Assembly (NCBI GenBank): GCA_030836155.1
Contig: JAURQI010000142.1
Span: forward strand, 1 to 56,306
DNA: 56,306 nt
Reading direction: 5' to 3'
Origin: Crocinitomix sp.
GTDB taxonomy: Bacteria; Bacteroidota; Bacteroidia; Flavobacteriales_D; Crocinitomicaceae
A model generated the notes under the pieces. The model searched no databases, was not told the DNA's origin, and worked only from the letters and a program-made list of their open reading frames with translations. The position numbers and the translations under genes were made by a program. Shown piece by piece: positions 17,170 to 34,402 of this stretch. Each line of letters begins with the position of its first letter. Within the stretch, counting starts at the first letter, position 1.

Positions 17170-17190
17170 TCTTAGAATAAGATTACATAT

Positions 17191-17223: not shown

Positions 17224-17577
17224 TGCCTTATATTTTCTGCCATCCCATGGATCTTCATGTGTAATGGTATCTGTTTGAAACAGTAAAAACACCGGGTTCA
17301 AATGAAAGCCGATACGCGATGGAACTCAATGCGTCAACTCAGTTGTTAATAAGATATGTAAGATCTTGTTCTGACGAACTAGATTGATTGATCAACTGCA
17401 TTATATCGCAAATGAATTAAATCGACATTCATCAATCCACTCTTTGTAAATCGCAGGCTCAATTAATCGAACCAATTGGCCAAAGGTAAAGGCACGGGAT
17501 AGAAATTTAGATGAGGACAAAAGAAACAGATTATCATTTGGGCTAACGATTCATCAAGAAACTACACGTCTTACAAC
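17224..17577. other. Non-coding stretch between the T9SS gene and the sterol-desaturase gene
   Basis: The region is bounded by terminators on both sides. I see no tRNA, no known RNA structure and no convincing gene. A minus-strand frame around 17425-17500 reads FTFGQLVRLIEPAIYKEWID before a stop. It looks protein-like and could be a decayed gene, but I cannot assign it. Confidence 0.4.
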
Positions 17578-17616
17578 AAAAAAACACCCTGCTGATCACA
17601 GATCAACAGGGTGTTT
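17578..17616 (-). terminator. Terminator of the sterol-desaturase gene (possibly bidirectional)
   Basis: ACACCCTG and CAGGGTGT pair, extended inward by TGATC/GATCA. An A-run precedes it on the plus strand, which is a T-run on the minus strand. Confidence 0.8.
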
Positions 17617-17638
17617 TAGAATTTTTTTGACTTACCTA

Positions 17639-18598
17639 CTACTCGTCAGGTCCTTTTCCAAAACCGTAAAATAACTGTCCAAAAAAGGTTTTAGGAAATT
17701 TAGCGACATTATTGAAGCCTAACTTTATATCCCTTCCTTCTGATGGGATATAATTTGTTCTGAATATATAATCCCAGATACTCAATGAGATTCCAAAATT
17801 AACCCCATGACGACGATCTTCTGGTAGCTCTTCAGCATGATGCCAGATATGCATTTTAGGATTGTTAAAAATATATTTTAAAGGGCCGTAAGACCAATTT
17901 AAATTAGCATGATTTAAATGTCCGATGGCGATAGTAGTAAAGTAAACAAGGTAAGCCATTTCCGGAACAAAACCACCTATCAGCATCAACATGATATATT
18001 TCATAGGTGTATAGAAAACATTCTCCATCCAGTGAAAACGCAAGTGAGCAGCAAAGCCCATTTGCTCAACCGAGTGATGTACTTTATGAAAACGCCATAA
18101 GAAATTAAAGCGGTGCAGTAATACATGGGTAAACCACTGAATAAAATCAAGCGCAATAAAGAAGATTATCAATTGCAACCAAAGCGGGTAAGAACTCATA
18201 TCAACAATTGCTAAACTTGATAAACTGCCGCCAAACAAATCTTGAACACCCATTTCTACCAAATTTGAGAAGGCTGTAAATATGACCAACTTAAAGATGT
18301 AGAAATTGAAAAACATATAAAACGCATCCAACCAAAAATCTTTTCTAAAAATCGGCTGATTTTTGCGCCAAGGGAATAATATCTCGAGGCCCCAAACAAT
18401 CAGCGACAGCAGAATCAGGCCCCAAAAATAATTTTCGTACCAATTTACCTGAAAGGTGATTTCTTTCCAGATATAAGATCCATAACCAGCGAAAGTTTCG
18501 AAAAAAACTTCTCCATAACCTTTTTCGTCCTGTGCGTGTGATAGTGTCGGCATGATCACACCCAGCCCCATTAATAAATAATACTTTAAATTTTTCAT
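17639..18598 (-). CDS. Sterol desaturase / fatty acid hydroxylase family membrane protein
   Basis: The 319-residue protein has the di-iron His clusters of this superfamily: HVLLH (with FTHVLLHRF), HKVHH, HLNHANL and HIWHH. Several long hydrophobic segments place the active site at the inner membrane. It hydroxylates or desaturates a lipid, but the substrate cannot be read. Ahead of the first membrane segment it carries a cleavable-looking signal peptide ending SHAQDEKG. Its terminator lies downstream. An 8-bp dyad at 18613-18633 sits 15 bp before the ATG, in the region shared with divergent kbl. Confidence 0.87.
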   Translation of the reverse strand: MKNLKYYLLMGLGVIMPTLSHAQDEKGYGEVFFETFAGYGSYIWKEITFQVNWYENYFWGLILLSLIVWGLEILFPWRKNQPIFRKDFWLDAFYMFFNFYIFKLVIFTAFSNLVEMGVQDLFGGSLSSLAIVDMSSYPLWLQLIIFFIALDFIQWFTHVLLHRFNFLWRFHKVHHSVEQMGFAAHLRFHWMENVFYTPMKYIMLMLIGGFVPEMAYLVYFTTIAIGHLNHANLNWSYGPLKYIFNNPKMHIWHHAEELPEDRRHGVNFGISLSIWDYIFRTNYIPSEGRDIKLGFNNVAKFPKTFFGQLFYGFGKGPDE

Positions 18599-18612
18599 GT
18601 CTTCATTAATCT

Positions 18613-18633
18613 AAACATGTTAAATACATGTTT
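18613..18633. repeat. 8-bp inverted repeat in the kbl/desaturase intergenic region
   Basis: AAACATGT and ACATGTTT are exact reverse complements with a five-base spacer, TAAAT. The dyad starts 15 bp upstream of the desaturase ATG on the minus strand. Confidence 0.5.
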
Positions 18634-18724
18634 GGTTTATTTTGTCTTTATCATATTGAGTCAGAAAGCCTCATTTTACTCCCCATCAATACAATATCAT
18701 TCGAAAATAGTTAAACTGAATCAT

Positions 18725-18732
18725 TATCTTTG
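18725..18732 (+). promoter_or_regulatory. TAnnTTTG box of kbl
   Basis: TATCTTTG is an exact -7 consensus. Its last G is the first base of a GTG that could be taken for the kbl start, so that GTG cannot be the true start. The ATG at 18759 fits. Confidence 0.6.
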
Positions 18733-18758
18733 TGCCAAACATTACAAAGGAAAAGACC

Positions 18759-19949
18759 ATGATAGGAAAATTGGAAAAACAACTACAGGAAGAGCTTGCA
18801 TCTATCAAAGATGCGGGTTTATATAAAGAAGAACGTATCATTGTTTCACCACAAGGTGCAGAAGTAAAATTAGATAATGGAGATGACGTGGTCATCATGT
18901 GTGCCAATAACTATCTGGGGTTGTCCTCTCATCCTAGTGTCATTGAAGGTGCAAAAAAAGCACTTGACACGCATGGTTTTGGAATGTCCTCTGTCCGTTT
19001 TATTTGCGGAACCCAAGATATTCATAAGACGCTTGAAAAGAAGATCGCTGATTTTCTTGGAATGGAAGACACAATTCTATACGCTGCAGCATTTGATGCA
19101 AACGGCGGCGTATTTGAACCGCTATTTACCAAAGAAGATGCAATAATTTCTGATGAATTAAACCACGCATCGATCATTGACGGTGTTCGTTTATGTAAAG
19201 CAGCACGCTATCGTTATAAGAACTCTGACATGGCTGATCTAGAAGAGCAATTAAAGGCAGCGCAGGAACATAGAAATCGTATTATTGTTACAGATGGTGT
19301 TTTCTCAATGGATGGTTATGTTGCCAAATTAGATCAGATTTGTGATTTAGCTGAAAAATATGACGCGATGGTCATGGTCGACGATTGTCACGCTACTGGT
19401 TTTATCGGTAAAACGGGTCGTGGTACTCATGAGCACAATGGTGTAATGGGACGTGTTGATATCATAACTGGTACGTTAGGAAAAGCATTAGGTGGAGCAA
19501 TGGGTGGTTTTACATCTGGTAAAAAAGAAGTCATTGAAATGCTTCGTCAGCGCTCTCGTCCCTATCTTTTCTCAAACTCTTTAGCGCCTAGTATTGTTGG
19601 AGCTTCAAATGCAGTATTTGACATTTTAAGCAATTCAACAGAGCTTCGCGATCAATTAGAAGAAAATACCAATTATTTTAAAGCAGGCATTAAAAGAATC
19701 GGTTTGGAAATTAGAGAAGGTGATTCGCCAATTGTTCCGGTTATGTTATACGATGCTAAAATTGCTCAAGAGTTTGCAAACCGTTTATTGGCTGAGGGTG
19801 TATACGCAATTGGATTCTTCTACCCTGTTGTGCCAAAAGATTTAGCTCGTATTCGTGTTCAACTTTCTGCAGCACATACAAAAGCTCATTTAGATAAAGC
19901 CATCAATGCTTTTGAAAAAGTCGGTAAAGAATTAGGAGTGATTAAATGA
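18759..19949 (+). CDS. kbl: Glycine C-acetyltransferase (2-amino-3-ketobutyrate CoA ligase)
   Basis: This PLP alpha-oxoamine synthase cleaves 2-amino-3-ketobutyrate with CoA to glycine and acetyl-CoA, the second step of threonine degradation. Motifs include [33 protein letters not shown] and the PLP lysine in [26 protein letters not shown] is also present. The ATG at 18759, just after AAAGGAAAAGACC, gives 396 residues. A longer GTG start at 18732 lies inside the promoter box. The downstream lipoprotein gene overlaps by four bases. No tdh gene is adjacent. Confidence 0.93.
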
Positions 19950-20977
19950 GAAAAGCAATAAGTCATATATGCACCATTTTTTTGGTCTTGCTCGCTGCAA
20001 GTTGTGGTAACGAGACAGAAAATGAAATAACTACGGGTAATGTTATTGAAATTGCCCCTTCTCAGGCTGAACTCGATGAATTAAAACTGGAAAAGGAACC
20101 GAAGATTATCCAGGACTTTTTTGCGGTAGATGAAGTTGTAATCGGGTCAGACTTTTGTTATGATCTTGAAGAAGCTAAATCGCTTATATTAGGAGATAGC
20201 ACTCCCGAAAACTGGACGCAATTTGAAGTCCATGATAATTATTTCACGCTCTATAATCGAACCTGCAAAGGAATGCTCGAATTTATGGAATTTGAAATGG
20301 GAGGCGAGTCTTATGCCTTTTTAAGTCAGATGAATTCAAGCATTCAGCAGTTTGATTTTCTAAAATGGGATGCTGCTAAAGCTATTTGGGTTGAACAATC
20401 CTTTTATCCAAGTCCGTCTTTAGAAGATTATTTTGCAGGAATAACGGATCAAGAGTATAAAACCGTTAAAGAATATGGTGCTGATTTTATCTACATCGAT
20501 CCCGGATCAAAATCAGCCACCTTTGTTTTCTCTGAGTTAAATACCCAACTCAACATGGGTGAAAAAGAGTTATTGGAATTTGACTTAAAACCAACTTATA
20601 CTTTTGACTTATTAACGGATAAAAAAGAGTTGTATTTAAAAGCGTCACCATTAAGTGTTGCAGCATCTGATCAGTTTTATTTTGTCGCTTATTCAAAGAC
20701 AAAAAATCGTTCGGAAAGCTTTGGTAAAAAATATAATGACGTTTTGGCTGCTTTGTATAATTACCCTGTTAATACACAAATCATTACCTACGGTGAAAAC
20801 GATTTTGACGTCTACTTTCCTGCCGACACGTTTAACTTCAGTCATATGGAACAATTTGAAGTAAGAGACGGCTTTTGGTTTTACCATAAAGGATATGAGC
20901 CACTAGATCTTGGATTAGACCAAGAAACAGATGTTATTATCCAACGCGCCCAGGCATATTTTGGGGGCGAAGAGTGA
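19946..20977 (+). CDS. Lipoprotein of unknown function downstream of kbl
   Basis: The signal sequence [17 protein letters not shown] places the lipobox cysteine at residue 20. The mature part of about 320 residues shows no domain I recognise. It is rich in acidic and aromatic residues, with [16 protein letters not shown] and a C-terminal [14 protein letters not shown]. It overlaps kbl by four bases and so shares its transcript, which suggests expression with threonine/glycine metabolism but no clear functional link. Confidence 0.8.
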
Positions 20978-21032
20978 ACATAATTTTATCATTCTTGTTG
21001 TTTCTGATTGAAAAAGAGTATAAATTCGCTTT

Positions 21033-21482
21033 ATGATTTTGGCATTATCACTTATCGGGGCTTTCATTTTTATGGAGTTTATGGCTTGGTTTACACATAA
21101 GTATATCATGCATGGTTTTCTCTGGAATTTGCATGAGGATCATCATCAGCCAACTGGAAAGACATTTCAAAAAAACGATCTGTTCTTTCTAATTTTTGCT
21201 ATTCCGTCTTGGTTGAATATCATGTTTGGTTTCATTTATCAGAATGATGTGATGATCGGCATCGGATTTGGTATTGCGGTTTATGGTTTTGTCTATTTCC
21301 TTGTTCATGATGTTTTGATTCACCGCAGAAAAAAATGGTTCGACAATATCAATAACCGTTATTTCCGAGCAGTGCGAAAAGCGCATAAAGTGCACCATAA
21401 AAACATGTACAAAGAGGACGGTGCCTGTTTTGGTATGTTATTATTTCCTTGGAAACACTATAGAGACGCTGTTAAATCCTAG
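21033..21482 (+). CDS. crtZ: Beta-carotene hydroxylase, CrtZ type
   Basis: This non-heme di-iron enzyme adds 3-hydroxyl groups to beta-carotene rings, giving zeaxanthin. The 149-residue length and four His boxes match CrtZ: HKYIMH (residues 22-27), HEDHH (34-38), HDVLIH and HKVHH. Hydrophobic segments lie between them, and LWNLHEDHH plus FRAVRKAHKVHH are typical of the family. A TAAATTCG box, one base from consensus, lies just upstream at 21021-21028. No other carotenoid gene is in the window. Confidence 0.9.
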   Translation: MILALSLIGAFIFMEFMAWFTHKYIMHGFLWNLHEDHHQPTGKTFQKNDLFFLIFAIPSWLNIMFGFIYQNDVMIGIGFGIAVYGFVYFLVHDVLIHRRKKWFDNINNRYFRAVRKAHKVHHKNMYKEDGACFGMLLFPWKHYRDAVKS

Positions 21483-21567
21483 ATTGTTTTAGCTTCATCT
21501 ATTTTGACGAAAAACCTGTGGTCAATTGCTTGGCTGTTTGTATATTAAGCTCACTAAACATTGAATA

Positions 21568-22434
21568 GTGCAAGCCAACCTAGACCAAATTTATAAGGAC
21601 GTAGATTTTCTGACGAAAATTAATCCCCCTCGCAACTTTCAAAACATGTCGTCACTGGCTGCTGTTTGCGATTATATTAAGTATGAAATCAAATTGGCCG
21701 GTGGTGAACCTAAAGAACAAACTTGGACGGCGCAAGGAGAGACCTACACCAATATTATTGTCTCCTATTTACCCGAAAAAGAAGAAAAATTAATTGTAGG
21801 TGCACATTATGATGTGTGCGGTAATCAGCCCGGCGCAGACGATAATGCCAGCGCTGTGGCGGGACTATTAGAAAGCATTCGGATCATATTTCAACAACAA
21901 CCTGATTTGGATTACGGTATTGAATTTGTCGCTTATTGTCTAGAAGAACCTCCTTTTTTTGGAACGGATGAAATGGGAAGTTATATACACGCCAAATCGC
22001 TTCATGACGCTAATACGCCAGTTATAGGCATGATTTGTTTTGAGATGATCGGCTATTTTTCCGACGAGCCGAATTCTCAAACTTATCCTACAGAGGCCTT
22101 AGCTGCCATTTATCCAAGTACGGCCAATTTTATTGTTGTTGTAGGAACCGAAAAGTATCATGATTTTAATTCACTCGTGCATGTTAGGATGCTACCTGAA
22201 GCAAGAATAGATGTGCAATTAATCAGTTTTCCCGATTCCAATAATTCCTTGTCTGCTTTATCTGATCACCATAATTATTGGAGATTTGGTTACCCCGCTT
22301 TAATGATCAATGACACCTCGTTTATTCGTAACCCACATTATCATGAGTCAACTGATACGATTGACACCTTAGACTTTGAAAAAATGACCGCTGTTATTGA
22401 TGCGGTTTATAACGCCATCACCCATTTAAAATGA
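21568..22434 (+). CDS. M28-family zinc peptidase, no signal peptide
   Basis: The metal site is read as AHYDVCG, GADDNASAVAGLLE (bridging Asp) and CLEEPPFFGTDEMGS (catalytic Glu). MICFEMIGYFSDE and the late SDHHNYWRFG follow. No signal peptide is visible, so it differs from the M28 protein at 13.2 kb and is probably cytoplasmic. The 288-residue frame has only one reasonable start, GTG at 21568; the next ATG would remove about 25 conserved-looking residues. Its stop overlaps the DHFR-like gene by four bases. Confidence 0.88.
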   Translation: MQANLDQIYKDVDFLTKINPPRNFQNMSSLAAVCDYIKYEIKLAGGEPKEQTWTAQGETYTNIIVSYLPEKEEKLIVGAHYDVCGNQPGADDNASAVAGLLESIRIIFQQQPDLDYGIEFVAYCLEEPPFFGTDEMGSYIHAKSLHDANTPVIGMICFEMIGYFSDEPNSQTYPTEALAAIYPSTANFIVVVGTEKYHDFNSLVHVRMLPEARIDVQLISFPDSNNSLSALSDHHNYWRFGYPALMINDTSFIRNPHYHESTDTIDTLDFEKMTAVIDAVYNAITHLK

Positions 22435-22973
22435 GAACAAAAAACTCCATATTTATCGCCACCAGTTTAGACGGCTTCATCGCCGATCAAAATGGAAACA
22501 TCGATTGGCTGCACCAGATTCCGAATCCGGATGGAGATGACATGGGTTATCGCGCTTTTATGGGTGAAATTGATGCCCTTTTAATGGGAAGAAACACGTA
22601 CGAAACCGTCCTTAGTTTTGATATGGACTGGCCTTATGACCAACCTGTTTTTGTGCTCAGCACTACACTCAATAGCGTTCCAAAAGAACTAGAAGGAAAG
22701 GTGTTTTTAAAAAAGGGAGACCTCTCCGTTATTCTATCTGAAATCAAGGAGGCGGGATACCATCATCTCTATATTGACGGAGGAAAAACAATTCAGCGTT
22801 TTCTGGAACAAGATTTGATTGATGAAATGATCATAACGTCCATACCCATTTTATTGGGGGGAGGAACGCCTCTGTTTGGATCAAACGATAAACGGTTAGC
22901 ATTTACCTGCACAAACACAAAAAGATTTGTAAATGCGGTGGCACAAAATCACTACACGCGCAACCGCGATTAA
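22431..22973 (+). CDS. Dihydrofolate-reductase-fold protein (RibD C-terminal domain family)
   Basis: The 180-residue protein opens with SIFIATSLDGFIADQNGNIDWL, the N-terminal strand and loop of RibD-C/YyaP-type reductases. LLMGRNTYETV, FVLSTTL, LYIDGGKTIQRFL and ITSIPILLGGGTPLF follow. These are the nucleotide-binding elements of the fold. The family is named for pyrimidine-reductase relatives of DHFR, but the substrate of stand-alone members is usually unknown. It overlaps the M28 gene upstream by four bases and is followed four bases later by a secreted-protein gene. Confidence 0.87.
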   Translation: MRTKNSIFIATSLDGFIADQNGNIDWLHQIPNPDGDDMGYRAFMGEIDALLMGRNTYETVLSFDMDWPYDQPVFVLSTTLNSVPKELEGKVFLKKGDLSVILSEIKEAGYHHLYIDGGKTIQRFLEQDLIDEMIITSIPILLGGGTPLFGSNDKRLAFTCTNTKRFVNAVAQNHYTRNRD

Positions 22974-22977
22974 AATA

Positions 22978-23412
22978 ATGATAATGAAAAAAATTCTCTT
23001 CTTATTGCTTGGCTTCCTGATGCTTCAAACAGCAAATGCCCAATTACAACCTCAGCTTGAAAATCCAGACGCCGAACCGAACTGTAAAATGATTCGGAAT
23101 AATTCTTTTCTCAATCGTGAACCGAATGGCAAAAACACCCCCGATTATCAAATTGTGTTTTCAGATGGTTTTGTTACCGAATACCTCGAAGGCGGGAAAT
23201 ATTATGTCAGAACGAAAGTAACTTTTACTTCTCCTTGCGAATACACCTCTACTGTTGTTGAAGTGACCAAGCCTCACTTTTCGATTAAAGTTGGCGACAC
23301 TTTTCGCACAACCATACTTGCAACTTCGACGGCCAATGGGTTGATTAAAATCAAAATCCAAATGAACGGTACTACAAATTTCATTATCCTCGAACAGATA
23401 AAGAAATCGTAA
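22978..23412 (+). CDS. Small secreted protein of unknown function
   Basis: The signal peptide MIMKKILFLLLGFLMLQTANA supports a start at 22978 or at 22984. An in-frame ATG at 22933 would overlap the DHFR-like gene and add unrelated residues. The mature part of about 120 residues has a few cysteines and a beta-rich composition (FVTEYLEGGKYYVRTKVTF). I recognise no domain. It is the last gene before a convergent outer-membrane protein gene, whose stop lies three bases away. Confidence 0.72.
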   Translation: MIMKKILFLLLGFLMLQTANAQLQPQLENPDAEPNCKMIRNNSFLNREPNGKNTPDYQIVFSDGFVTEYLEGGKYYVRTKVTFTSPCEYTSTVVEVTKPHFSIKVGDTFRTTILATSTANGLIKIKIQMNGTTNFIILEQIKKS

Positions 23413-23415
23413 GAT

Positions 23416-24108
23416 CTAAAGAATACCGATTTTAAGACCAATAATGGGTGTTGGATAAGTCAAGCTATGACCGTCTCTTAAGGTCCAAACACCTCTTCTC
23501 TCCGGCATACCGCTACCCGCTGGCACTTCCGAATTAGAACGTACTTTGATATAGCGAATACTTAATCCTGCATAAAAATCAATTGCAAAGTTTTCGTTTT
23601 CTCTTTGAACTCCAATTTTTGTGTCCACAAAGGTATTGAAACGATGGAAGACCATCGGGACATTTTTGAAATAAGCAAATTCCTCCATGCCAAATTCATT
23701 GGTCACCCCCTCCATACCAACTGCAAAATCATCTCGAATAATCAAGTGTCGAAACGTTAAGCCAAAGGCTAAATAACGCTCCGTTTTAACAAGCATATAT
23801 AAACGTCCTTCAGTTCGCAAACGATATCCGCCCATGCGGTCATAATCATTAAATGCTTCTGAAGAAAGGTATTGTAAAAAAGAAGGGATAACCGCCGCAC
23901 CGAATTGCAAAGAAGTTGATTGAGGCATTTTCACCTCTACGTCTGCTCCGAATGTCGGAATAACCGAAATATAGTCAAACGGACTAAGTTTCACGATCTT
24001 ATCTGTGGCCTTTAACGACCAAGGTTCAGCCGGAATAGAATCTGTCTGTGCTATAAGTGTCTGGACACTCAAAACAAACATCAAAAATATCGTTACAATT
24101 GGTTTCAT
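23416..24108 (-). CDS. Predicted outer-membrane beta-barrel protein
   Basis: A signal peptide (MKPIVTIFLMFVLSVQTLIA) leads a 230-residue protein. It has alternating hydrophobic-polar strands such as YRLRTEGRLYMLVKTERYLAFGLTF, split by turns, which is typical of small outer-membrane barrels in Bacteroidota. I cannot assign a specific family. The gene lies downstream of the LVIVD lipoprotein genes on the same strand, with 42 bp between, and may share their transcript. Confidence 0.65.
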   Translation of the reverse strand: MKPIVTIFLMFVLSVQTLIAQTDSIPAEPWSLKATDKIVKLSPFDYISVIPTFGADVEVKMPQSTSLQFGAAVIPSFLQYLSSEAFNDYDRMGGYRLRTEGRLYMLVKTERYLAFGLTFRHLIIRDDFAVGMEGVTNEFGMEEFAYFKNVPMVFHRFNTFVDTKIGVQRENENFAIDFYAGLSIRYIKVRSNSEVPAGSGMPERRGVWTLRDGHSLTYPTPIIGLKIGIL

Positions 24109-24150
24109 ATCAATAGAATTTGAGGGTTATCCCTTTCTTTTTGTTGTGAT

Positions 24151-24930
24151 TTATTCTACACTTATCACTGACTTTTGCGTCAATTCAAGTGGGTTTGTTG
24201 CATCATATTGATAAACACCTTGTCTGGTCAATACAATGAGGTTGTTGTCTGTATCAGGAATGACATCAATGGCATCAAGACCTTCTAAATGCATGACCTG
24301 TTCAGGCATTTCCGGATTTGAAATATCAAAAGCTTTTACACCAGCATATCCATCACAGATATAAACTAGATCCGTTGAGTTTTCAGCAAGACCTAATCCA
24401 TAAGGGTTTAATAGTTCTGTGCTTGAGATCAAAGTTGGATTTGTGATATCTGAAATATCAATCAGATCCAATTGGTTCACATTTCCATTACAAGGTGTTC
24501 CACCTCTTAATGTTGCTAAGGCATATTCATCATTCGCCACTACTGGATCGCAGCTCGTTACATGATCAAAACGCGACACTTGCTCTGGCTGACGCGGATT
24601 GGTAACGTCATAAATACGCACTCCATTTTGTGTGCCAATAAATAAATGATCATTTTGCGGGAAAATCGTCTCAATTCCAACTCCTAAATTTACGGTCTCC
24701 AATAATTCTGGATTAGCTGGATCTGCAAGATGGAATACTTTTAATGACTTATAGTCTACCGTATATAAATAGTTTCCTAAGATGGTAAACTGAGCCATTG
24801 ATCCACCCTCCCCAAGCGTTGCTTGATTCATCGAGTTTGTATTGGCATTTCCTTGTGCCGGCTCTTTTTCGCAACTAGCAAAAAATACCAGTGTGACTAA
24901 AACAATTGTATAATTTCTAAGATTTTTCAT
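24151..24930 (-). CDS. LVIVD-repeat lipoprotein
   Basis: The start at 24930 gives the signal MKNLRNYTIVLVTLVFFASC with the lipobox cysteine at residue 20. A longer upstream start would add a non-signal segment. Propeller-type repeats follow, such as LKVFHLADPANPELLETVNL, VRIYDVTNPRQPEQVSRF and LIDISDITNPTLISS. Then come VKAFDISNPEMPEQVMHL and VYQYDATNPLELTQKS. These are LVIVD-type units of a beta-propeller, often lipid-anchored at the outer membrane. It is probably a surface protein of unknown ligand. A similar but shorter lipoprotein precedes it by ten bases. Confidence 0.87.
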   Translation of the reverse strand: MKNLRNYTIVLVTLVFFASCEKEPAQGNANTNSMNQATLGEGGSMAQFTILGNYLYTVDYKSLKVFHLADPANPELLETVNLGVGIETIFPQNDHLFIGTQNGVRIYDVTNPRQPEQVSRFDHVTSCDPVVANDEYALATLRGGTPCNGNVNQLDLIDISDITNPTLISSTELLNPYGLGLAENSTDLVYICDGYAGVKAFDISNPEMPEQVMHLEGLDAIDVIPDTDNNLIVLTRQGVYQYDATNPLELTQKSVISVE

Positions 24931-24940
24931 TTGTCTAATT

Positions 24941-25462
24941 TTATTTGAAACACTCTGGGTTCGATAATGTGGTTTTCTCCCAACCAACTACAATTCCTTT
25001 TGATGGATCGACACATTCGAATGCCCCAAATTCATCTGGAAATTGTTGTAATGGAAATACATCCTCAATACGGTTAACATAATCTGGTGAAGCTGGATTT
25101 GTAATATCAACAACCACCATATCGGTAATGTTATCTGCATATAACATTCCATTACTCACAGAGAAATCCAGGTTTCCAGGAATAGCGATAAACGAAACCT
25201 CAACCGGAGAAGATGGATTAGTATTGTCGTAAATATGAATTCCTTTCGCCTGATCATTGATCAACAAATACTCACCATAGACATACACTCTGCCTGGATT
25301 TTCTAATGCTTCTTCTGCAGCAACCGACACTTGCTTTAGATCAGCCCCATCTGCATAAATAGGTTTGTAACCCTCTACTGACTCTTGCTTTTTTTCTTTA
25401 CCACAAGCTACTAAAAGCAGCATGGAGCAAACAACAGCAGTGGTTCTTTTTAAATTTTTCAT
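24941..25462 (-). CDS. LVIVD-like lipoprotein, shorter paralogue
   Basis: The 173-residue protein has a lipoprotein signal (TAVVCSMLLLVACG, cysteine at residue 20). It carries two LVIVD-type units: IHIYDNTNPSSPVEVSF and MVVVDITNPASPDYVNRI. A C-terminal extension ends VGWEKTTLSNPECF. With only two or three repeats it is shorter than its neighbour and cannot close a full propeller alone, so it may pair with it. It lies in the same operon and is transcribed first. Confidence 0.8.
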   Translation of the reverse strand: MKNLKRTTAVVCSMLLLVACGKEKKQESVEGYKPIYADGADLKQVSVAAEEALENPGRVYVYGEYLLINDQAKGIHIYDNTNPSSPVEVSFIAIPGNLDFSVSNGMLYADNITDMVVVDITNPASPDYVNRIEDVFPLQQFPDEFGAFECVDPSKGIVVGWEKTTLSNPECFK

Positions 25463-25542
25463 TGTTCTGAATTTTTAGATTCGACCTCATCGAGCTTATC
25501 TTCTCGATCGTTTTCATATGCGAGTCGTGATCATTTCTATAC

Positions 25543-25552
25543 CCCCCTATTC
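25543..25552. repeat. Left arm of a CCCCCTATTC / GAATAGGGGG pair flanking the ECF sigma gene
   Basis: CCCCCTATTC lies about 50 bases upstream of the -7 box of the sigma gene. Its exact reverse complement occurs at 26169-26178, at the end of the shifted sigma frame and 30 bases before the anti-sigma start. Confidence 0.45.
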
Positions 25553-25598
25553 TGAATTGAGATTTTTTTATTTAACAGCGGTAAATGCATAAAATTAT

Positions 25599-25606
25599 TA
25601 GCTTTG
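25599..25606 (+). promoter_or_regulatory. TAnnTTTG box of the first ECF sigma gene
   Basis: TAGCTTTG matches the -7 consensus. It overlaps a TTG codon at 25604 in the sigma frame, so the first ATG after it, at 25625, is the probable start. Confidence 0.55.
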
Positions 25607-25624
25607 AATTCGATCTATTCGTTA

Positions 25625-26104
25625 ATGACTATAGCCGAATACCATATCCTCTTTGAAACGCATTATAATGCCTTGTGTAATTATGCATACGCCATCGTAA
25701 AAGATTATGATGAAGCAGAGGATATCGTACAAGGGGTATTCATTAAATTTTGGAACAACGAAAATAAAGCTGAAATAGCAGATAAAGCAAAACAATACCT
25801 TATCCGCTCGGTAAAATTTAAATGCATGGATTACCAACGCAAAGCGATTGTGAAGCGGAAATATGAAAAAGAAGCTGTCCATACAATGGAAGCCGATCAA
25901 CGCACTGCTACTGATATTGATTTTGAACTGGAGGAATCAACCGATTTGAAAGACGTATTGATGATGGCTATTTCAGAATTGCCGCAAAAAACACGGGAAG
26001 TTTTTATGATGTCCAAACTAGACGGACTTCGTTATAAAGAGATTGCTGACCATTTGGACATCTCTCCAAAAACGGTCGAAAATCAAATGGGTAGAGCCTT
26101 TTAA
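25625..26104 (+). CDS. FecI-like ECF sigma factor with an apparent frame break at its 3' end
   Basis: This RNA polymerase sigma-70 factor of the ECF group directs transcription of the adjacent receptor genes. Region 2 shows LFETHYNALCNYAYAIVKDY, EDIVQGVFIKFWNN and AKQYLIRSVKFKCMDYQRK. Region 4 ends in LPQKTREVFMMSKLDGLRY, then KEIADHLDISPKTVENQMGRAF. The frame stops at TAA 26102-26104 inside what should be the recognition helix. In the +1 frame from 26103 the reading continues KHLREKLKDYKDLL, then a hydrophobic tail, to a TAG at 26172-26174, a usual FecI ending. The natural product is therefore likely longer, or the gene is broken. Confidence 0.85.
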   Translation: MTIAEYHILFETHYNALCNYAYAIVKDYDEAEDIVQGVFIKFWNNENKAEIADKAKQYLIRSVKFKCMDYQRKAIVKRKYEKEAVHTMEADQRTATDIDFELEESTDLKDVLMMAISELPQKTREVFMMSKLDGLRYKEIADHLDISPKTVENQMGRAF

Positions 26105-26174
26105 ACACCTGCGAGAAAAACTAAAAGACTATAAAGATTTATTGGTCCTCATTATTTTTTTAATGATTGAATAG
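26099..26174 (+). other. Frame-shifted C-terminal extension of the ECF sigma (possible +1 frameshift site)
   Basis: The context is TTT-TAA-A. If the tRNA on TTT moves one base forward to the overlapping TTT, the next codon is AAA. Reading then gives KHLREKLKDYKDLLVLIIFL plus a few residues before TAG. This matches the usual end of FecI-like sigmas. The site is only a four-base T-run. Confidence 0.5.
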
Positions 26175-26207
26175 GGGGAAACCAATCTTTAAACGATTTA
26201 TAGACAA

Positions 26208-27149
26208 ATGAACGAATTGAATGACATATTAGCACGCTACTTTGCCGGAGAGGCAAATGCTGATGACACTCAAAAAGTGGAAGCTTGGAAAGCCTCGAAT
26301 CCAGAGGAGTTTGAAGCTTTGCAAAAGTCGTGGTCTTCTATAGACAATGATTTGATTGCTGATTTAGAATTCAAAACATTTGATAAAAAAGCGGCTTGGG
26401 ACAAAGTTGAACCTTCATTAAATCCTGAACAGGAAACACGGGTTATTCGTTTGCAATTTTATAAAAAAGTGGCTGCTGCTTGCGCTATTCTATTAATCGG
26501 ACTGGGTGCTTTTTGGTATCTGAACGGTACTAGTACAATGGTCATCACCAATGATACGGCAGGTCAAAAAGAATTAAACTTACCCGATGGTTCACAAGTT
26601 TGGTTAGCCGAAAACACACGATTAGAATACAATTCAGATTTTAATGACGATCGGACATTAAAATTAGAAGGAGAAGCTTTTTTCGAAGTGACAAAAGATC
26701 CTGATCATCCTTTTATTGTTCATACAACCCATGGTGATATCGAAGTTTTAGGTACTGCTTTTAATGTCTCCACCAAAGAAAATGAAACGGTTGTGTCAGT
26801 CGATCATGGTCGCGTTGCTGTGACGAATGAAAAAGGCACGGTGGAGCTTACAATTGGCGAATCAACTTCTGCGAATTCAGAAGGGGTTGCTGATCCCAAA
26901 CCAGCTGATCCAAATTTTGATGCTTGGAAAACTGGAACTTTTGTTTTTGACGGCATGCCTTTATCCGCTGTCCTTGAACTGCTTAATGATCACTACACTA
27001 CAAAGATCAAATTAGCAAATGATTCAAAAAATGACGAACTTTATACAGGTTCATGGGAAGATGAATCGATCCATACGATCATTCAGTCCATTACCAAAAC
27101 CTGCAATGTAACGGCTGATTCTTCTGGAGCAGTCATTGAACTTCGTTAA
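26208..27149 (+). CDS. FecR-family anti-sigma / signal-transducing protein
   Basis: The 313-residue protein has an N-terminal cytoplasmic domain with YFAGEANADDTQKVEAW that would bind the sigma. A single membrane segment (VAAACAILLIGLGAFWYL) lies near residue 95. The periplasmic FecR domain follows with LPDGSQVWLAENTRLEY, GEAFFEVTKDPDHPFIV and GTAFNVSTKENETVVSV. A C-terminal DUF4974-type segment (LSAVLELLNDHY) is also visible. It sits between the sigma gene and the TonB receptor gene, the normal order for this signalling cassette, and should relay receptor occupancy to the sigma. Confidence 0.93.
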   Translation: MNELNDILARYFAGEANADDTQKVEAWKASNPEEFEALQKSWSSIDNDLIADLEFKTFDKKAAWDKVEPSLNPEQETRVIRLQFYKKVAAACAILLIGLGAFWYLNGTSTMVITNDTAGQKELNLPDGSQVWLAENTRLEYNSDFNDDRTLKLEGEAFFEVTKDPDHPFIVHTTHGDIEVLGTAFNVSTKENETVVSVDHGRVAVTNEKGTVELTIGESTSANSEGVADPKPADPNFDAWKTGTFVFDGMPLSAVLELLNDHYTTKIKLANDSKNDELYTGSWEDESIHTIIQSITKTCNVTADSSGAVIELR

Positions 27150-27158
27150 TAGCAATCT

Positions 27159-29717
27159 ATGCGTCTAGCGCTATGGCTTTTTATTGTCTTTTTTGTTTCG
27201 GGGCTAAATGCTCAGGAATTGTTAGATCGTAAAATTACCATTCGCTTTCAAGATCAGCAATTAGAGAAATGCCTTAAAGAAATTGAGCAAAAATCCGGTG
27301 TTCACTTCTCTTACAATGCTAAACAAATTCGCGCCGTATCCAAACCGATTCGTCAAACATTTGAAGATAAAGAAATACGATTCGTATTGGATCAATTACT
27401 CACGGGAACCGGATTACAATACGAAGAAATGGGTGGGCAAATTACCCTCTATCAATTAGTATCAAACGAAGAAACCGTTATACTCAGTGGTTATCTCCGA
27501 TCAAAAGCATCGGGTGAACATTTAATAGGCGCGCGTATTTATTTCCCAAGTTTAGGTATTGGTTGCATCACCAATACTTATGGTTATTATGCCATTGATC
27601 TACCAAAAGGTTCCCATACTTTTCAAGCGCGATCGATTGGTATGCAATCACTCATATCTGAATTGAATCTTCAAGAAGACCGTGTTTTTAATATCGAATT
27701 ATCTGAAGATACGGTGATGCTTCATGCTGTCGAAGTTCATGCTGATTCAAGCGATGAAAAGATCGTAAATCCAAAAGACTTGCCTCATTTAGAGAAAACA
27801 GTGATCACCCCCGGTGCCATTGCGAAAGTACCACCAGCCAGTGGCGAACGTGACTTATTGCGTCATATCCAACAATTGCCTGGTGTGCAACCTGCAGGCG
27901 GTGGAAGATCCAATTTTACGGTACGCGGTTCGGGTACTGGTGGGAATTTAATTCTCATCGATGAGATTCCAATTTATCATCCAACTCACTTATTGGGTTT
28001 ATACTCCATTATTAATACGGATGCTTTAAAATCAGCCACCTTATATAAAGATTATATTCCGGCTCGTTTCGGCACAAGAAGTGCTTCCGTATTGCAAGTT
28101 CATAAACAAGAAGGTGATCTTAATCGGTATCATATTTCGGGCGGAATAAGTGGATTTATGGGGCGCCTGAATCTACAGGGTCCTATCCAAAAAAATAAGG
28201 CTTCCTTTTATACATCTTTCAGAGCTTCGACTTTCCCAGGCGCTTTGCTTTCTATTTTAAGTGATCGCGATTTAGGTAGCCCGACGTTTTTTGATTGGAA
28301 TGGTAAAATTAACTACCGCATTAACGCGAATAATCGCATCTATTTTACGGGTTATATCGGTCGAGATGGGCTCAGTGATTCGCTGTCTGACTATCAGTGG
28401 GGAAATAATGCCTTTGGATTCCGATGGAATCATATTATCAATGCCAAGACATTCTCAAATCTAAGCTTAACACACAGTGCTTTCTTATATGGTTTTGAAA
28501 ATAGTAATACATACCAGAGTGTCAGTTATGGACAACGTGTCGTCACCGATAAAATAACGTATGACTTTACGTATTTTATGAATAATTCCACTCGCATTAA
28601 CTATGGATTATCGGCTGCGTTTATCCCCACCAATAAAGGAAATTTTGGTGATGCTGCCGATTTATTTCTTCAACGCCAAGCAATTGAAAGCGGATTATAT
28701 GCAACGGTTGAACAGCAAATAAATAAACGCCTCGAGCTGAAATTAGGGTTGCGTATTCCTTTCTCAATGCATATCGGAACCGGAGATACCACCGCCTACT
28801 TAACACCGGAATTTGATTTAACAGAGGTGATCTATGAACGCAATAAACTCTATGACCCTTTAGTTTATCTGGATCCACGCATCTTGCTCAAGTATAGACT
28901 AGGAGCTGCAAGTCAATTACAATTGGCAGGCACCATTACCAGTCAGAACACACATATCGTCAATTACATCAATAATTTTTTACCGATCGAAATTTGGACG
29001 CCGTCTACCAGTTATCTTAGACCCGAACGTAATTATCAAGTCTCCTTAGGTTATACGGGTCAATGGAAAAAGTGGGACTTGTCCGCATCTGCCTATGTGA
29101 AGCATGTCCGCAATGTACTCGATTATGCCTCTCCAATTTTTACCAATTCAACCGATATTGAAAGTAATCTTTTAGCAGGAAACCTGAATGTACAAGGTTT
29201 TGAATTAATGATGACCTATAAATTCACCTCTTGGTACTCTACTGCTTTCTCTTATGCTTATACCCGTACGCGCCAAAAAGTGGAAGGCATCAACTATGAC
29301 GAAGACTACGTTGCGGCAGGAAATCGTCCCCACTATTTCTCGTGGAGTCAATTTTTTAATTGGTCAAAAAAATGGCAGTTTACCACTAATTATATCTGGC
29401 ATTCAGGTGCGGCTGTCACTTTACCGAATGGTCAATTTGTAATCGACGGTACTGCTTTTCCGCTTTACGAAGCCAATCGTAATACCGAACGTCTGCCCAC
29501 CTTCAGGAGGTTGGATTTAGCTTTTCGCCGACAATTGGGCGTTAAGAAAAAGAAAGATCATTGGGACTTGACCTTTACCGTGACCAACTTTTTTAACCGC
29601 TATAATCCGTCGGTTGCTTTTCCAGATCACCAAACCGGCCAACCTGATCAGCTTGTTATCCGTTCAATAGATTACTCACCGCTTATGGTTTCTATGAGCT
29701 TAAATTTTAGATACTGA
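27159..29717 (+). CDS. TonB-dependent receptor with STN and carboxypeptidase-like N-terminal domains
   Basis: The 852-residue outer-membrane receptor has a signal peptide. Residues 20-100 form the STN domain (KITIRFQDQQLEKCLKEI, SGVHFSYNAKQI), which talks to FecR. A carboxypeptidase-regulatory-like domain follows (GYLRSKASGEHLIGARIYF). The plug comes next (RDLLRHIQQLPGVQPAGG, FTVRGSGTGGNLILIDEIPI) and then a beta-barrel ending SPLMVSMSLNFRY. The STN domain implies ligand-induced signalling through FecR to the sigma. The ligand is not known; the DUF4249 lipoprotein next door suggests a non-siderophore substrate such as a peptide or oligosaccharide, which is inference. Confidence 0.93.
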   Translation: MRLALWLFIVFFVSGLNAQELLDRKITIRFQDQQLEKCLKEIEQKSGVHFSYNAKQIRAVSKPIRQTFEDKEIRFVLDQLLTGTGLQYEEMGGQITLYQLVSNEETVILSGYLRSKASGEHLIGARIYFPSLGIGCITNTYGYYAIDLPKGSHTFQARSIGMQSLISELNLQEDRVFNIELSEDTVMLHAVEVHADSSDEKIVNPKDLPHLEKTVITPGAIAKVPPASGERDLLRHIQQLPGVQPAGGGRSNFTVRGSGTGGNLILIDEIPIYHPTHLLGLYSIINTDALKSATLYKDYIPARFGTRSASVLQVHKQEGDLNRYHISGGISGFMGRLNLQGPIQKNKASFYTSFRASTFPGALLSILSDRDLGSPTFFDWNGKINYRINANNRIYFTGYIGRDGLSDSLSDYQWGNNAFGFRWNHIINAKTFSNLSLTHSAFLYGFENSNTYQSVSYGQRVVTDKITYDFTYFMNNSTRINYGLSAAFIPTNKGNFGDAADLFLQRQAIESGLYATVEQQINKRLELKLGLRIPFSMHIGTGDTTAYLTPEFDLTEVIYERNKLYDPLVYLDPRILLKYRLGAASQLQLAGTITSQNTHIVNYINNFLPIEIWTPSTSYLRPERNYQVSLGYTGQWKKWDLSASAYVKHVRNVLDYASPIFTNSTDIESNLLAGNLNVQGFELMMTYKFTSWYSTAFSYAYTRTRQKVEGINYDEDYVAAGNRPHYFSWSQFFNWSKKWQFTTNYIWHSGAAVTLPNGQFVIDGTAFPLYEANRNTERLPTFRRLDLAFRRQLGVKKKKDHWDLTFTVTNFFNRYNPSVAFPDHQTGQPDQLVIRSIDYSPLMVSMSLNFRY

Positions 29718-30526
29718 TGCGTTTTAAGGCCTATATACTGATGCTGCTGACAATCGCTGTGTACGGTTGTAAAAAAGACATCTTAGACCTTGACTTAACC
29801 GACCACCAACAAGAGCGCATCATCGGCGAAGGAATGATTACCCAACATTTTAAAAAGCAACGCTTTTTCTTTAGTTTAAGCAGCAATTTAGGCGATGTCA
29901 ATCAAACCGTGACAAACGAAGCTAACTTATTAATAAAAACACCAGCAGGTATAATGTATTACACACCTATTGGTGGTGGTTGGTACGAATCTGAAATAGA
30001 ATTTCAAGGCCAAGCAGGTTTTAATTACACGATTCAATTTACGTACGAAGGTGAGTTTCACGAGGTAGTGACTGAAATGCCAGAAGAAGCGGATATAAAA
30101 TCGCTTATATTGCCAGATACAGGCTCATTTTCTTATCCTCATTTTGCCAATTCTATCACAATAGAAATGAGTTCAGAAGCGAATCAAATGGTTCATTTTG
30201 ATATTTATCATGTTAACCAAGAATGGCAAGAAATCACCCTCCCTGTTTATCAGCAATTTTCATTGTATCCAGACACAAGTCAAATCATAACAGTACCCTT
30301 CGACAATGCCACCAGTCCAGCCATACACATTGGAGATACACTGGTCGTTGTATCCAAAACACTTTCAAACGATGTGAGTGATTATTTGCAAGGATTGCAA
30401 TCTTATGTAACCAGTGAGGTGCTCAATAGTCAATATTACAATCCGCCATTCTATTATTCTAATGGAGCCTACGGTCTAGGGTACGGAACATTTATCGACA
30501 CCATTTATCATGTCGTCGGCCAATAG
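29717..30526 (+). CDS. DUF4249 lipoprotein, partner of the TonB-dependent receptor
   Basis: The signal MRFKAYILMLLTIAVYGC has a lipobox cysteine at residue 18. The mature part has the features I associate with the DUF4249 lipoproteins coupled to TonB receptors: FHEVVTEMPEEADIKSL in the middle and late aromatic-rich segments with QSYVTSEVLNSQYYNPP. Such proteins may form a surface lid on the receptor. It overlaps the receptor gene by one base (TGATG), so they are co-translated. It converges with the outer-membrane protein gene directly after it. Confidence 0.83.
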   Translation: MRFKAYILMLLTIAVYGCKKDILDLDLTDHQQERIIGEGMITQHFKKQRFFFSLSSNLGDVNQTVTNEANLLIKTPAGIMYYTPIGGGWYESEIEFQGQAGFNYTIQFTYEGEFHEVVTEMPEEADIKSLILPDTGSFSYPHFANSITIEMSSEANQMVHFDIYHVNQEWQEITLPVYQQFSLYPDTSQIITVPFDNATSPAIHIGDTLVVVSKTLSNDVSDYLQGLQSYVTSEVLNSQYYNPPFYYSNGAYGLGYGTFIDTIYHVVGQ

Positions 30527-31228
30527 TTATTCAGCAATTTTCTCTTCTTTCTTTTTTCTTAGATGATAGCGAATGGCGATATGCGCACTCGTTTGAAAAT
30601 CGAAAATAGCTGGGGGATTACCCACAAATTCAACATAGGGGTCGATTATAGCAGAAGCCCCCATATAAATCGGCAAACTACCTCTTGCCGAACCTCCCAC
30701 ACTTAACGTGAATTGTTCACTTATGGGTACGTTCATGATGGCAGAAAAGCGCAACCCTGGTATCATGTAATGTCTACGGATCTGAGCTCTGTCATTTGTA
30801 AAACCGCCAAAAGGTGCTACTTGCGGGACCTCAACATTATGGAAATAGGTCATATTATAACGTTGTTGTTCTCTGGATTGATAAGCCAGTTCCACATCCA
30901 AACCAATACTAAATAGGGATTGTTTAATGCGGTGCTCTCCGCCAAACCTTAGGTTCGCATATTCTGATGATTCATTATAATAGCGCTGAACAACAGATGT
31001 ATCCGTAATATCGATGATCTCATAATATTGATTACCAAAATAACTGTATTTAGACCCGGCTAAAAGACCAAGTTTTAGCTTCCACTGTTCACTAACTGCT
31101 TTTCTAAATTCCAACCCAATCCGAGATGTTTCATCTTGTGAAAAGATCAATCCAATGTCTGATTTTTCTTGTGCAAAAAGTGTCGGTGAAAGAAATAAAA
31201 CGATGAGTCCAATTAGTCCATTTTTCAT
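30527..31228 (-). CDS. Predicted outer-membrane protein
   Basis: A signal peptide (MKNGLIGLIVLFLSPTLFAQ) leads a 233-residue beta-strand-rich protein with SRIGLEFRKAVSEQWKLKLG, IGLDVELAYQSREQQ and AHIAIRYHLRKKKEE. The regular strand pattern and final RYHLRKK suggest a small barrel with a short charged tail. No specific family is evident. It has the same general layout as the barrel gene at 23.4 kb. About 120 bp upstream of its ATG is a perfect 22-bp palindrome. Confidence 0.68.
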   Translation of the reverse strand: MKNGLIGLIVLFLSPTLFAQEKSDIGLIFSQDETSRIGLEFRKAVSEQWKLKLGLLAGSKYSYFGNQYYEIIDITDTSVVQRYYNESSEYANLRFGGEHRIKQSLFSIGLDVELAYQSREQQRYNMTYFHNVEVPQVAPFGGFTNDRAQIRRHYMIPGLRFSAIMNVPISEQFTLSVGGSARGSLPIYMGASAIIDPYVEFVGNPPAIFDFQTSAHIAIRYHLRKKKEEKIAE

Positions 31229-31348
31229 GATGCGATCATTTAAGTTGTGGATGATAAAACGAGAGTTGCAGATGAATATTGTCAGAGGTGGGTCAAAGAA
31301 CAGCTATTTTGAAGTGATGCACTTCCTCAATGCTTGCTGTCAGTCCCT

Positions 31349-31370
31349 GTGATTCGTTATAACGAATCAC
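31349..31370. repeat. 22-bp perfect palindrome
   Basis: GTGATTCGTTA is followed directly by its exact reverse complement, with no spacer. It lies 121 bp upstream of the outer-membrane protein gene at 30527-31228 and about 50 bp from the terminator of the VWA gene. No T-run adjoins it, so it looks like a dimeric operator rather than a terminator. Confidence 0.65.
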
Positions 31371-31421
31371 TTTTCTGAGAGTTAGTTACAATATATATCA
31401 CACATATTTCTCAACATAATT

Positions 31422-31456
31422 AAAAAAAGCGAACACCCCAATCGGAGTATTCGCTT
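31422..31456 (-). terminator. Terminator of the VWA gene (minus strand)
   Basis: AAGCGAACACCCC and GGAGTATTCGCTT pair, allowing G-U pairs, around AATC. The A-run on its left is a T-run on the minus strand. It lies 33 bases beyond the stop codon. Confidence 0.8.
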
Positions 31457-31488
31457 CTTTGCCAACTTCTACTTATCCTTCTCTGTTT

Positions 31489-33402
31489 TTAGCACACCAT
31501 TTTGGCGGCATCTACCAATTTGATAAATTCTGCACGATAGCCATTTTTATCATCTCCAATTCCTTGTTCTGCAAGTTCAATGACTTTGTCAAACAGCATG
31601 TCTCCGGCGTATTCTGATTCGCGTAATAGCATTCCGAAACCGGCTACGGCGGCAGAGAATTTATAATTGTCTGATAATTTCTCCCATCGTGTGATTTCAT
31701 TTTTCAGGTGACGCTCTAATAATTTACTCTTAGACCCGTTTGGATCTTTGTATCGGAACTTCACGGTCAATAATTCATTGAGGCGAGTCGGCTTTCCATC
31801 TGCATCTTGATAACGTAAAGGGTCAACCGACGGCGTTGTTGCTGTTTCTCCCTCACCTTTCAACACCACTTCGTACAACGCCGTGACGGAATGACCGGCT
31901 CCTATTTCCCCTGCATCTTTCTTATCATCATTAAAATCTTCAGCATTTAATAAACGGTTTTCATATCCAACCAATCGGTAGCTTTCAACCACCGCTGGGT
32001 TAAATTCTACTTGAATCTTGACATCCTTTGCTAAGGTCACGAGCGTTGCTCCAATCTCTGTGACCAATACTTTTTTTGCTTCAAATACATTGTCGATGTA
32101 GGCGTAGTTTCCATTACCAGCATCTGCCAATGTTTCCATTTTAGAATCTTTTAAATTACCGGTTCCAAATCCTAAACAGGTTAAGAAAATGCCTGTCTCT
32201 CGTTTTTTCTCGATCAATTGCTTCATAGAAGCATCTGAACTCATTCCGATATTAAAATCACCGTCTGTTGCCAAAATAACACGGTTATTTCCGCCATCGA
32301 TAAAATTCTCTTGAGCAACCTTATAAGCCAGTTCAATTCCAGCTCCACCTGCAGTAGAACCTCCTGCACTTAACTTCTCCAATGCTTCTAAAATCTGACT
32401 ATTATTATCAGCACTAGTTGAGTTTAAAACAACACCCGCAGCTCCAGCATAAACGACGATTGCAATACGATCTCGTTCACTTAGCTCATTGACCAACATT
32501 CGAAATGACTTCTTGAGTAATGGTAATTTATTTGGACTGTTCATTGAACCCGACACATCTAAAAGGAAAACTAAATTACTCGCGGGTAAGTCCGTTTTAT
32601 CGATTCGCTCACCTTGTAAACCAATATGAACTAATTTATTTTTACTCCAAGGACAGTCGCCAATTTCTGTAGTAATTGAAAATGGATGCTCATCTGTTGG
32701 GTTGGGATAATCATAGTCAAAATAGTTGATCATCTCCTCTACACGAACGGCACCTTTTTCTGGCTTTTGACCTTGCATTAAAAAACGACGTACGTTTGAA
32801 TAGGATGCCGCATCTACATCTACTGAAAATGTCGATAAGGGACTTGTTGTGGTTAGTTTATATCCATTTTCCTCAATCGCATTGTAGGACTCAGTGTTAT
32901 GATAAGGAGCTTCTGATCGTGAAATAGAACCACCGGCCCAGCCTAAATTAGAACTCGTTTTTCTAGAACGCCCCATGTCCTTAAGTGCATCCGTTCTCGT
33001 CACCGGTGCATGATCATATTCGGCGTCTACTTCTTCAACCACTTCTATTTCTTTTGGCGGATTGGGTGCGTCAATCGTCATTTGGATATTTAGATGCTTG
33101 ATTTGTTTTGAATTGACTTTTACATCCTTCTTTTTATAGTCTTCATAGCCTAACATCGTAACGCTCAAATCATATGATCCAGGTCGTACATTTTTGATTT
33201 CATAAGCCCCTAATTTGTCTGTTTTTGTTTGACGTTTATGATTGCCATTCTTGATGATTACAAATGCTGAAATGACAGGATCACCTGAATTTTTATCCGT
33301 AATTTTTCCAGTTATGGATCCTAAATTAGATTGTGACCAACCGGCTATTGCCAGCGTCATGGACAGTAATAAAAATGTGAATCGAAGTGCTATTGTTTTC
33401 AT
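31489..33402 (-). CDS. Secreted VWA-domain protein with carboxypeptidase-like N-terminus (YfbK-like)
   Basis: The start at 33402 gives the signal peptide MKTIALRFTFLLLSMTLAIA. Domains in order: a carboxypeptidase-regulatory-like fold (SITGKITDKNSGDPVISAF, near residues 30-110), and a YfbK-type pre-VWA segment (FSVDVDAASYSNVRRFLMQG). A VWA domain follows, with the MIDAS motif LLDVSGSMNS near residue 285 and ATDGDFNIG. A C-terminal DUF3520-like part of about 200 residues closes it. It probably acts outside the cytoplasm in metal-dependent protein binding. It follows an anti-sigma/TonB gene and an ECF sigma gene on the same strand, so the three are likely one regulated unit. Confidence 0.9.
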   Translation of the reverse strand: MKTIALRFTFLLLSMTLAIAGWSQSNLGSITGKITDKNSGDPVISAFVIIKNGNHKRQTKTDKLGAYEIKNVRPGSYDLSVTMLGYEDYKKKDVKVNSKQIKHLNIQMTIDAPNPPKEIEVVEEVDAEYDHAPVTRTDALKDMGRSRKTSSNLGWAGGSISRSEAPYHNTESYNAIEENGYKLTTTSPLSTFSVDVDAASYSNVRRFLMQGQKPEKGAVRVEEMINYFDYDYPNPTDEHPFSITTEIGDCPWSKNKLVHIGLQGERIDKTDLPASNLVFLLDVSGSMNSPNKLPLLKKSFRMLVNELSERDRIAIVVYAGAAGVVLNSTSADNNSQILEALEKLSAGGSTAGGAGIELAYKVAQENFIDGGNNRVILATDGDFNIGMSSDASMKQLIEKKRETGIFLTCLGFGTGNLKDSKMETLADAGNGNYAYIDNVFEAKKVLVTEIGATLVTLAKDVKIQVEFNPAVVESYRLVGYENRLLNAEDFNDDKKDAGEIGAGHSVTALYEVVLKGEGETATTPSVDPLRYQDADGKPTRLNELLTVKFRYKDPNGSKSKLLERHLKNEITRWEKLSDNYKFSAAVAGFGMLLRESEYAGDMLFDKVIELAEQGIGDDKNGYRAEFIKLVDAAKMVC

Positions 33403-33508
33403 ATTGAATTTTTTCTTGATTTGCACTTCTGTAAAATCAAGTTTCAGAAAGGTTCATTTTTTTTTGATGGGGAATAAAATTCACCTTCATTTTCAGAAAA
33501 TGATGGAC

Positions 33509-34402
33509 TTATTCTTCACGGATTTCAAAAACAATAGGAAGAATAAAATTCATAGAAGTTGGCTCACCTGCGACTTTACCCGGAGACCATTTTGGCATTT
33601 TCTTAATGATGCGCATGGCCTCTGCATCTAATTCATTATTGACACTTTTATGAATTTTATAATTGCCCAGTTGGCCCGTTTCAGAAATTGAAAAGCTGAC
33701 CTCCACCGTTCCCGTTATTCCTTGATTAAACGCATTCTGAGGATATCGAATATTTGTCGCAATAAATTGACGCATGGCAGATCGGCCACCCGGAAATTCG
33801 GGCTGAATGGCGTTATCATTATCTGTTTGGTGCATATTGGAATTATCGCTACCCCCTCCTGTTCCCGAATAATGCTCATCATCCAATACTTCAATATTGA
33901 TAATCGTGTCGATCTCGAGAATCGTGTCGGTTATGATTTTTAAATCCTCCGCCGTCTCAGTGACCTCCTCTATTTCGCTTTCAATTATTGGGGTTTCAAT
34001 CATTGGCGCTGGCGGACATGTGTCAATGCATTCGGGTTGGTTCGGCATGGCATCTTCGGAGTGTTCAATAGTTGCCATTTCCTTTTCGCTACAAATACAA
34101 TATGCTTTTTTGTCCTCTAAACTGACAAAATACCAGATACCTGCGCCAATTATCAAAACACCTAAAGCGATACCGATTTGACTGGCCCACATTTTTAATT
34201 TATAGCGTCTATAACCAGTTTGCGCATCCGTTTTAAGTCCCACTCTCTCTAGACCTTCCATCATCTCTTTTTGAACAGCCACCGACTCTGCTAAGTTATG
34301 GTCGGAAGCCATGACTTGTTCAAAAGCTTTCGCTTCTTCCCCATTCATTTTGCCCAGTAGATACTGTTCAATTTTCTCTATTTCCATCAGTTCTTTTCTC
34401 AT
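33509..34402 (-). CDS. Anti-sigma-like protein with a TonB C-terminal domain
   Basis: The 297-residue protein has a cytoplasmic N-terminus resembling anti-sigma zinc-finger-less domains (IEQYLLGKMNGEEAKAFEQV). One membrane segment follows (IGIALGVLIIGAGIWYFV, near residue 75), then a periplasmic acidic and Pro/Thr-rich linker. A TonB C-terminal domain closes it (PEFPGGRSAMRQFIATN, ISETGQLGNYKIHKS, AMRIIKKMPKWSPGKVAGEP). It overlaps the sigma gene by four bases (ATGA). The fusion links sigma control to an outer-membrane energising domain in one protein. Confidence 0.85.
   Translation of the reverse strand: MRKELMEIEKIEQYLLGKMNGEEAKAFEQVMASDHNLAESVAVQKEMMEGLERVGLKTDAQTGYRRYKLKMWASQIGIALGVLIIGAGIWYFVSLEDKKAYCICSEKEMATIEHSEDAMPNQPECIDTCPPAPMIETPIIESEIEEVTETAEDLKIITDTILEIDTIINIEVLDDEHYSGTGGGSDNSNMHQTDNDNAIQPEFPGGRSAMRQFIATNIRYPQNAFNQGITGTVEVSFSISETGQLGNYKIHKSVNNELDAEAMRIIKKMPKWSPGKVAGEPTSMNFILPIVFEIREE

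Follow-up and report, generated by a model that had tools for sequence, protein, structure and literature searches.

A FecI-like ECF sigma factor gene in the window (the whole 56,306-nucleotide stretch of Crocinitomix sp. DNA analysed here) is interrupted by one extra base that is private to this assembly and absent in the relatives found, while the tail beyond the interruption is intact and the spacing to the downstream fecR gene matches. The extra base is best explained as a consensus error in the draft, a reading to which we give practically an even chance, with a recent real indel as a close second; that it represents error rather than mutation is what we infer. Under the preferred explanation, the CC/TTTT tract at 26097-26102 of the draft consensus would contain one base too many within an ordinary sigma/FecR/TonB-receptor cell-surface-signalling operon, the sigma gene of which is whole in relatives. 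The real gene would then encode the full sigma factor, with a complete recognition helix and a hydrophobic tail, and frameshifting would not be involved.

Organization of the sigma factor locus

The part of the sigma gene that precedes the stop was assigned to the FecI-like ECF family TIGR02985 (143.5 bits versus a cut-off of 126.4) and was shown to match Pfam Sigma70_r2 and Sigma70_r4_2. It adjoins a FecR anti-sigma factor and a TonB-dependent receptor gene, both identified by Pfam, in agreement with the first-pass annotation, which had described these two genes as intact (Table 1). As assembled, the gene is an interrupted member of TIGR02985, as its region 4 is not complete in a single frame, which stops inside the recognition helix according to an orthologue model. 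TTG 25604, given in a mechanical list of open reading frames, is probably not the start codon; ATG 25625 is preferred, since the orthologue at congener locus L041 starts at the equivalent position. The same congener locus encompasses three open reading frames in identical order.

The unshifted frame terminates with the residues ...SPKTVENQMGRAF, followed by TAA 26102-26104, and the +1 frame reads KHLREKLKDYKDLLVLIIFLMIE up to TAG 26172-26174. These readings, together with the position of the T run (26099-26102), had been given correctly in the first-pass annotation, and the FecI-like ending that it described for Bacteroidota was indeed seen in related sigma factors of the phylum. The extra base has no unique placement, as GCCTTTTAAA may be read either as GCC-TTT-AAA with an extra T or as GCT-TTT-AAA with an extra C. 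Four of the five congeners carry GCT-TTT followed by an arginine codon, representing a four-T run within an unbroken frame, and T-run length is therefore not diagnostic by itself; a run of three T, previously proposed as the mark of a whole gene, is not the sole route to one. Transcriptional slippage and phase variation were set aside, the run consisting of just four T.

On the minus strand of the window (24151-25462), two adjacent lipoprotein-like genes, listed as overlapping in different frames, were seen by eye to encode similar proteins with repeats such as ITNPASP and DISNPEMP. These are probably tandem paralogues with a mis-called start.

Table 1. Features of the sigma factor operon and of the site of interruption (window coordinates)
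Feature	Position	Strand	Basis
ECF sigma-70 factor (FecI-like, TIGR02985), frame before interruption	25625..26104	+	159 codons plus TAA; Pfam, NCBIfam, orthologue alignment
Site where the CC/TTTT tract gained one base, with the in-frame TAA 26102-26104 that it creates	26097..26104	+	Sequence; absent in 9/9 orthologues found
Expected sigma C-terminus (end of recognition helix and hydrophobic tail)	26103..26174	+	+1 frame, 23 codons plus TAG; orthologue tails
FecR-type anti-sigma factor, intact	26208..27149	+	Pfam FecR, FecR_C
TonB-dependent outer-membrane receptor with STN signalling domain, intact	27159..29717	+	Pfam TonB_dep_Rec_b-barrel, Plug, STN, CarbopepD_reg_2

Continuity of the frame in orthologues and wider relatives

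Orthologues of the sigma gene were identified in five of the eight other genomes of the genus (E 1.5e-70 to 8.3e-65) and, with at most 15 best candidates scored per genome, in nine of 239 other genomes of the family (E up to 1e-36), these nine comprising the five congeners (67-73% identity) together with four genomes outside the genus, which belong to three genera (51-62%). The other three congeners, each 98-99% complete, yielded no match to the sigma gene at E up to 1e-36, indicating that not every member of the genus possesses it, a point in favour of a real insertion.

In each of the nine orthologues found, the frame is continuous through the site and ends exactly 23 residues later. An orthologue alignment had been set beforehand in the first-pass annotation as a check able to refute its reading, and the orthologue half of that check went against it: all nine frames are continuous and the extra base occurs here only, which leaves the earlier lean towards a functional shifted gene unsupported.

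The same pattern was observed among wider relatives. The 30 best loci of the genus search include 24 other sigma genes (27-39% identity), none of which has a stop directly after the site. Likewise, in a genome_contigs scan none of the best 80 of 119 relatives (the nine orthologues included) shows a stop codon immediately behind the corresponding residue. This set derives from 84 rows, from which L033-L036 were dropped: their site codons, tails and identity values equal those of L044-L047, and they are taken to be the same genes. For L056, L114 and L118, among the 84 rows, the stretch read contains no stop, and the frame runs on beyond the site in all three. The scan may omit records very near the genome of the window, so that the species may have a second genome that escaped it. 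A viral_contigs scan with window letters flanking five unspecified bases returned no match; owing to the fixed length of the middle it could meet only copies in which this site is as long as it is here, and it says nothing about uninterrupted copies.

Preservation of the tail and of the spacing to fecR

Between 12 and 19 of the 23 residues encoded in the +1 frame are identical to those of the nine orthologue tails, all of equal length, in line with the earlier claim of preserved downstream codons. Given these identities and the single common length, the match is more than chance. Codon position 2 was shown to carry the fewest differences in every one of the nine tail comparisons. Conservation is higher in the 21 codons that precede the site than in the tail, which is consequently described as undecayed within a fairly variable region, with no special constraint shown. 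The sigma gene was whole until very recently, or is whole still.

Furthermore, the fecR start codon lies 33 nt from the shifted stop and 103 nt from the unshifted one. In seven of the nine orthologous loci, the distance from the sigma stop to the next long open reading frame is likewise 33 nt, with 32 and 34 nt in the remaining two, and the spacing to fecR thus agrees with that of the orthologues only when it is counted from the shifted stop.

The comparative evidence is equally compatible with a real, very recent one-base insertion, resulting in a 159-residue, probably impaired sigma factor and an operon heading to loss in the strain or lineage, to which we give somewhat less than an even chance. 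Such an insertion is at odds with the lack of decay in the tail and in both downstream genes, and, if real, it must be very young for this reason.

Predicted consequence of the truncation

An AlphaFold2 model of the L041 orthologue was obtained with a mean pLDDT of 79.4 and a pTM of 0.43 from 22 aligned sequences, the last two blocks having pLDDT values of 71 and 66. In this model, a helix at residues 144-162, which we take to be the recognition helix from general knowledge of region 4, is followed by a last, hydrophobic helix at 166-177, and the break in the window's sigma gene maps to a cut behind residue 155. According to the model, the short sigma factor would keep the conserved SPKTVENQMG and would lose seven residues at the end of the recognition helix together with the terminal hydrophobic helix, consistent with the earlier proposal that the unshifted form lacks the end of this helix. 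The 159-residue protein is therefore predicted to be functionally impaired, and a truncation that cuts into the modelled recognition helix speaks for a real insertion. Among solved structures searched by sequence (E up to 1e-4), the single match was SigW (5wuq), extending to query residue 157 and not covering the tail.

A strongly hydrophobic stretch (9-residue Kyte-Doolittle mean of at least 1.6) past the core of the recognition helix was observed in 57 of 80 related sigma factors (L039-L118) and in the +1 tail (window 26103-26171). Such a hydrophobic tail may perhaps bind the membrane or FecR. A literature search found neither hydrophobic sigma tails in Bacteroidota nor a role for them at the level of titles and abstract openings, which is not proof of absence in print.

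Programmed +1 frameshifting

The first-pass annotation had likened the site to the +1 frameshift of prfB. In a shift of this kind, a P-site Phe-tRNA paired with UUU would re-pair with the UUU that overlaps it one base on, UAA being in the A site, and termination efficiency would set the ratio of short to full sigma factor. We hold such a regulated shift to be highly improbable. The UUU-UAA-A sequence does permit full re-pairing one base forward and may thus be shift-prone, the +1 frame retains the tail, and ribosomes of the phylum are capable of this reaction, as prfB is shifted in 523 of 726 Bacteroidia genomes according to PMC8710568. Conversely, the stop is found in none of the nine orthologues and in none of the best 80 loci that include them. 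Of the three options originally put forward (regulated shift, recent insertion and sequence error), the latter two are favoured here and the first is not supported.

The presence of a Shine-Dalgarno-like stimulator was assessed for the 15 nt upstream of the site, pairing of which with the anti-Shine-Dalgarno sequence was shown to be weak (-3.8 kcal/mol). The nine unshifted orthologues span -3.5 to -7.8 kcal/mol, which includes this value, and the Flavobacterium johnsoniae prfB element, as presented in PMC8710568, reaches -13.2 kcal/mol. The sigma site has a putatively shift-prone P-site codon followed by a stop, as in prfB, and lacks both site conservation and a Shine-Dalgarno-like stimulator.

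The prfB gene of the host genome, moreover, is itself one continuous frame, matching TIGR00020 from position 2 to 352 without an internal stop. Its frame from ATG runs uninterrupted through QLKDFERRVGELHGYLNIEEKR, a stretch presumed, by comparison with the Escherichia coli protein, to be the expected place of the shift site. A CTTTGA near the start of this gene (codons 9-11) is out of frame, being read as GAC-TTT-GAG. The known example of the mechanism thus appears to be absent in this genome, and the prfB analogy is left unsupported by site conservation, pairing energy and the host's own prfB alike. Antonov et al. (PMC3711429, Table 1) treat a conserved site as required for programmed frameshifts, and the sigma site is without such conservation.

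Slippage at TTT-TAA is possible; the only observations in its favour are that the site is prone to slip and that the tail is intact. A lineage-specific +1 slip at UUU-UAA, yielding two forms of the sigma factor, of which only the full one would carry the hydrophobic tail, is likewise highly improbable, and so is the notion that termination efficiency would, in such a lineage, set the amount of sigma factor held by its tail. If a regulated shift were true, it would place a sigma factor under ribosome recoding control; no case of a recoded sigma factor was found in the literature at the level of titles and abstract openings, which does not prove absence in print.

Consensus error and recent insertion

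The assembly is a 180-contig draft, estimated to be 94.31% complete and 2.22% contaminated. None of the searches made on it gave a sign of a pathogen. A run of four bases is short for a homopolymer error, which counts against a consensus error. Frame changes within genes were sampled by tblastn and observed at two of ~180 places in this genome, the sigma gene and one other, versus none of ~213 in three congeners (reverse direction), the samples covering 490,764 of 3,194,873 bases of this genome and 1,585,820 (G001), 619,510 (G007) and 173,043 (G003) bases of the relatives. Places were counted at E up to 1e-20, identity of at least 35% and coverage of at least 60%, with those within 250 bases merged, and a frame change was called where a further collinear match with E below 0.1 lay in a different frame, so that interruptions near gene ends can escape. 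The sigma gene had been known in advance; without it, the independent count is one of ~179, no meaningful difference from none of ~213. This single independent broken gene gives a weak tilt towards errors and is also compatible with young pseudogenes.

The second broken gene (L121, at 12894-13850 and 13879-14382; contig C135, bases 13725-33724) contains a +1 frame change, placed by eye near a six-A run, as would result if one base were gained or two were lost. Its two parts match a congener homologue (L156, a single frame of 487 residues) at 60% and 32%, and the product appears, by eye, to be glycosyltransferase-like.

Antonov et al. (2013; PMC3711429) expect BLASTp-validated singleton frame transitions to be sequencing errors and not genuine indels. 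The same source regards singleton frameshifts near the 3' end as likelier to be true indels than those elsewhere, and the position of the present one near the 3' end accordingly counts against an error and leans towards a real insertion. A preserved tail behind a shift-prone stop calls for caution, since an error of one base or a fresh indel would leave precisely this picture; most of the question is settled once a few congeners are compared.

Comparison with known systems

Like the programmed +1 frameshift of prfB, the sigma site combines an A-site stop with a P-site tRNA able to re-pair one base forward. It differs in having UAA instead of UGA, in the lack of a strong Shine-Dalgarno-like element and of conservation in the relatives found, and in the lack of an evident autoregulatory logic, in a host whose own prfB is unshifted. 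With the singleton frame transitions, as characterized in PMC3711429, the sigma case shares its occurrence in one genome only and the presence of homologues that span both sides in one frame, and the tests made revealed no difference between the two. Finally, the gene resembles the FecI-like TIGR02985 sigma factors of sigma-FecR-TonB receptor operons in its domains, gene order, FecR partner, STN-containing receptor, C-terminal sequence and spacing, and it is set apart from them by a one-base break in the frame ahead of the final 23 codons.
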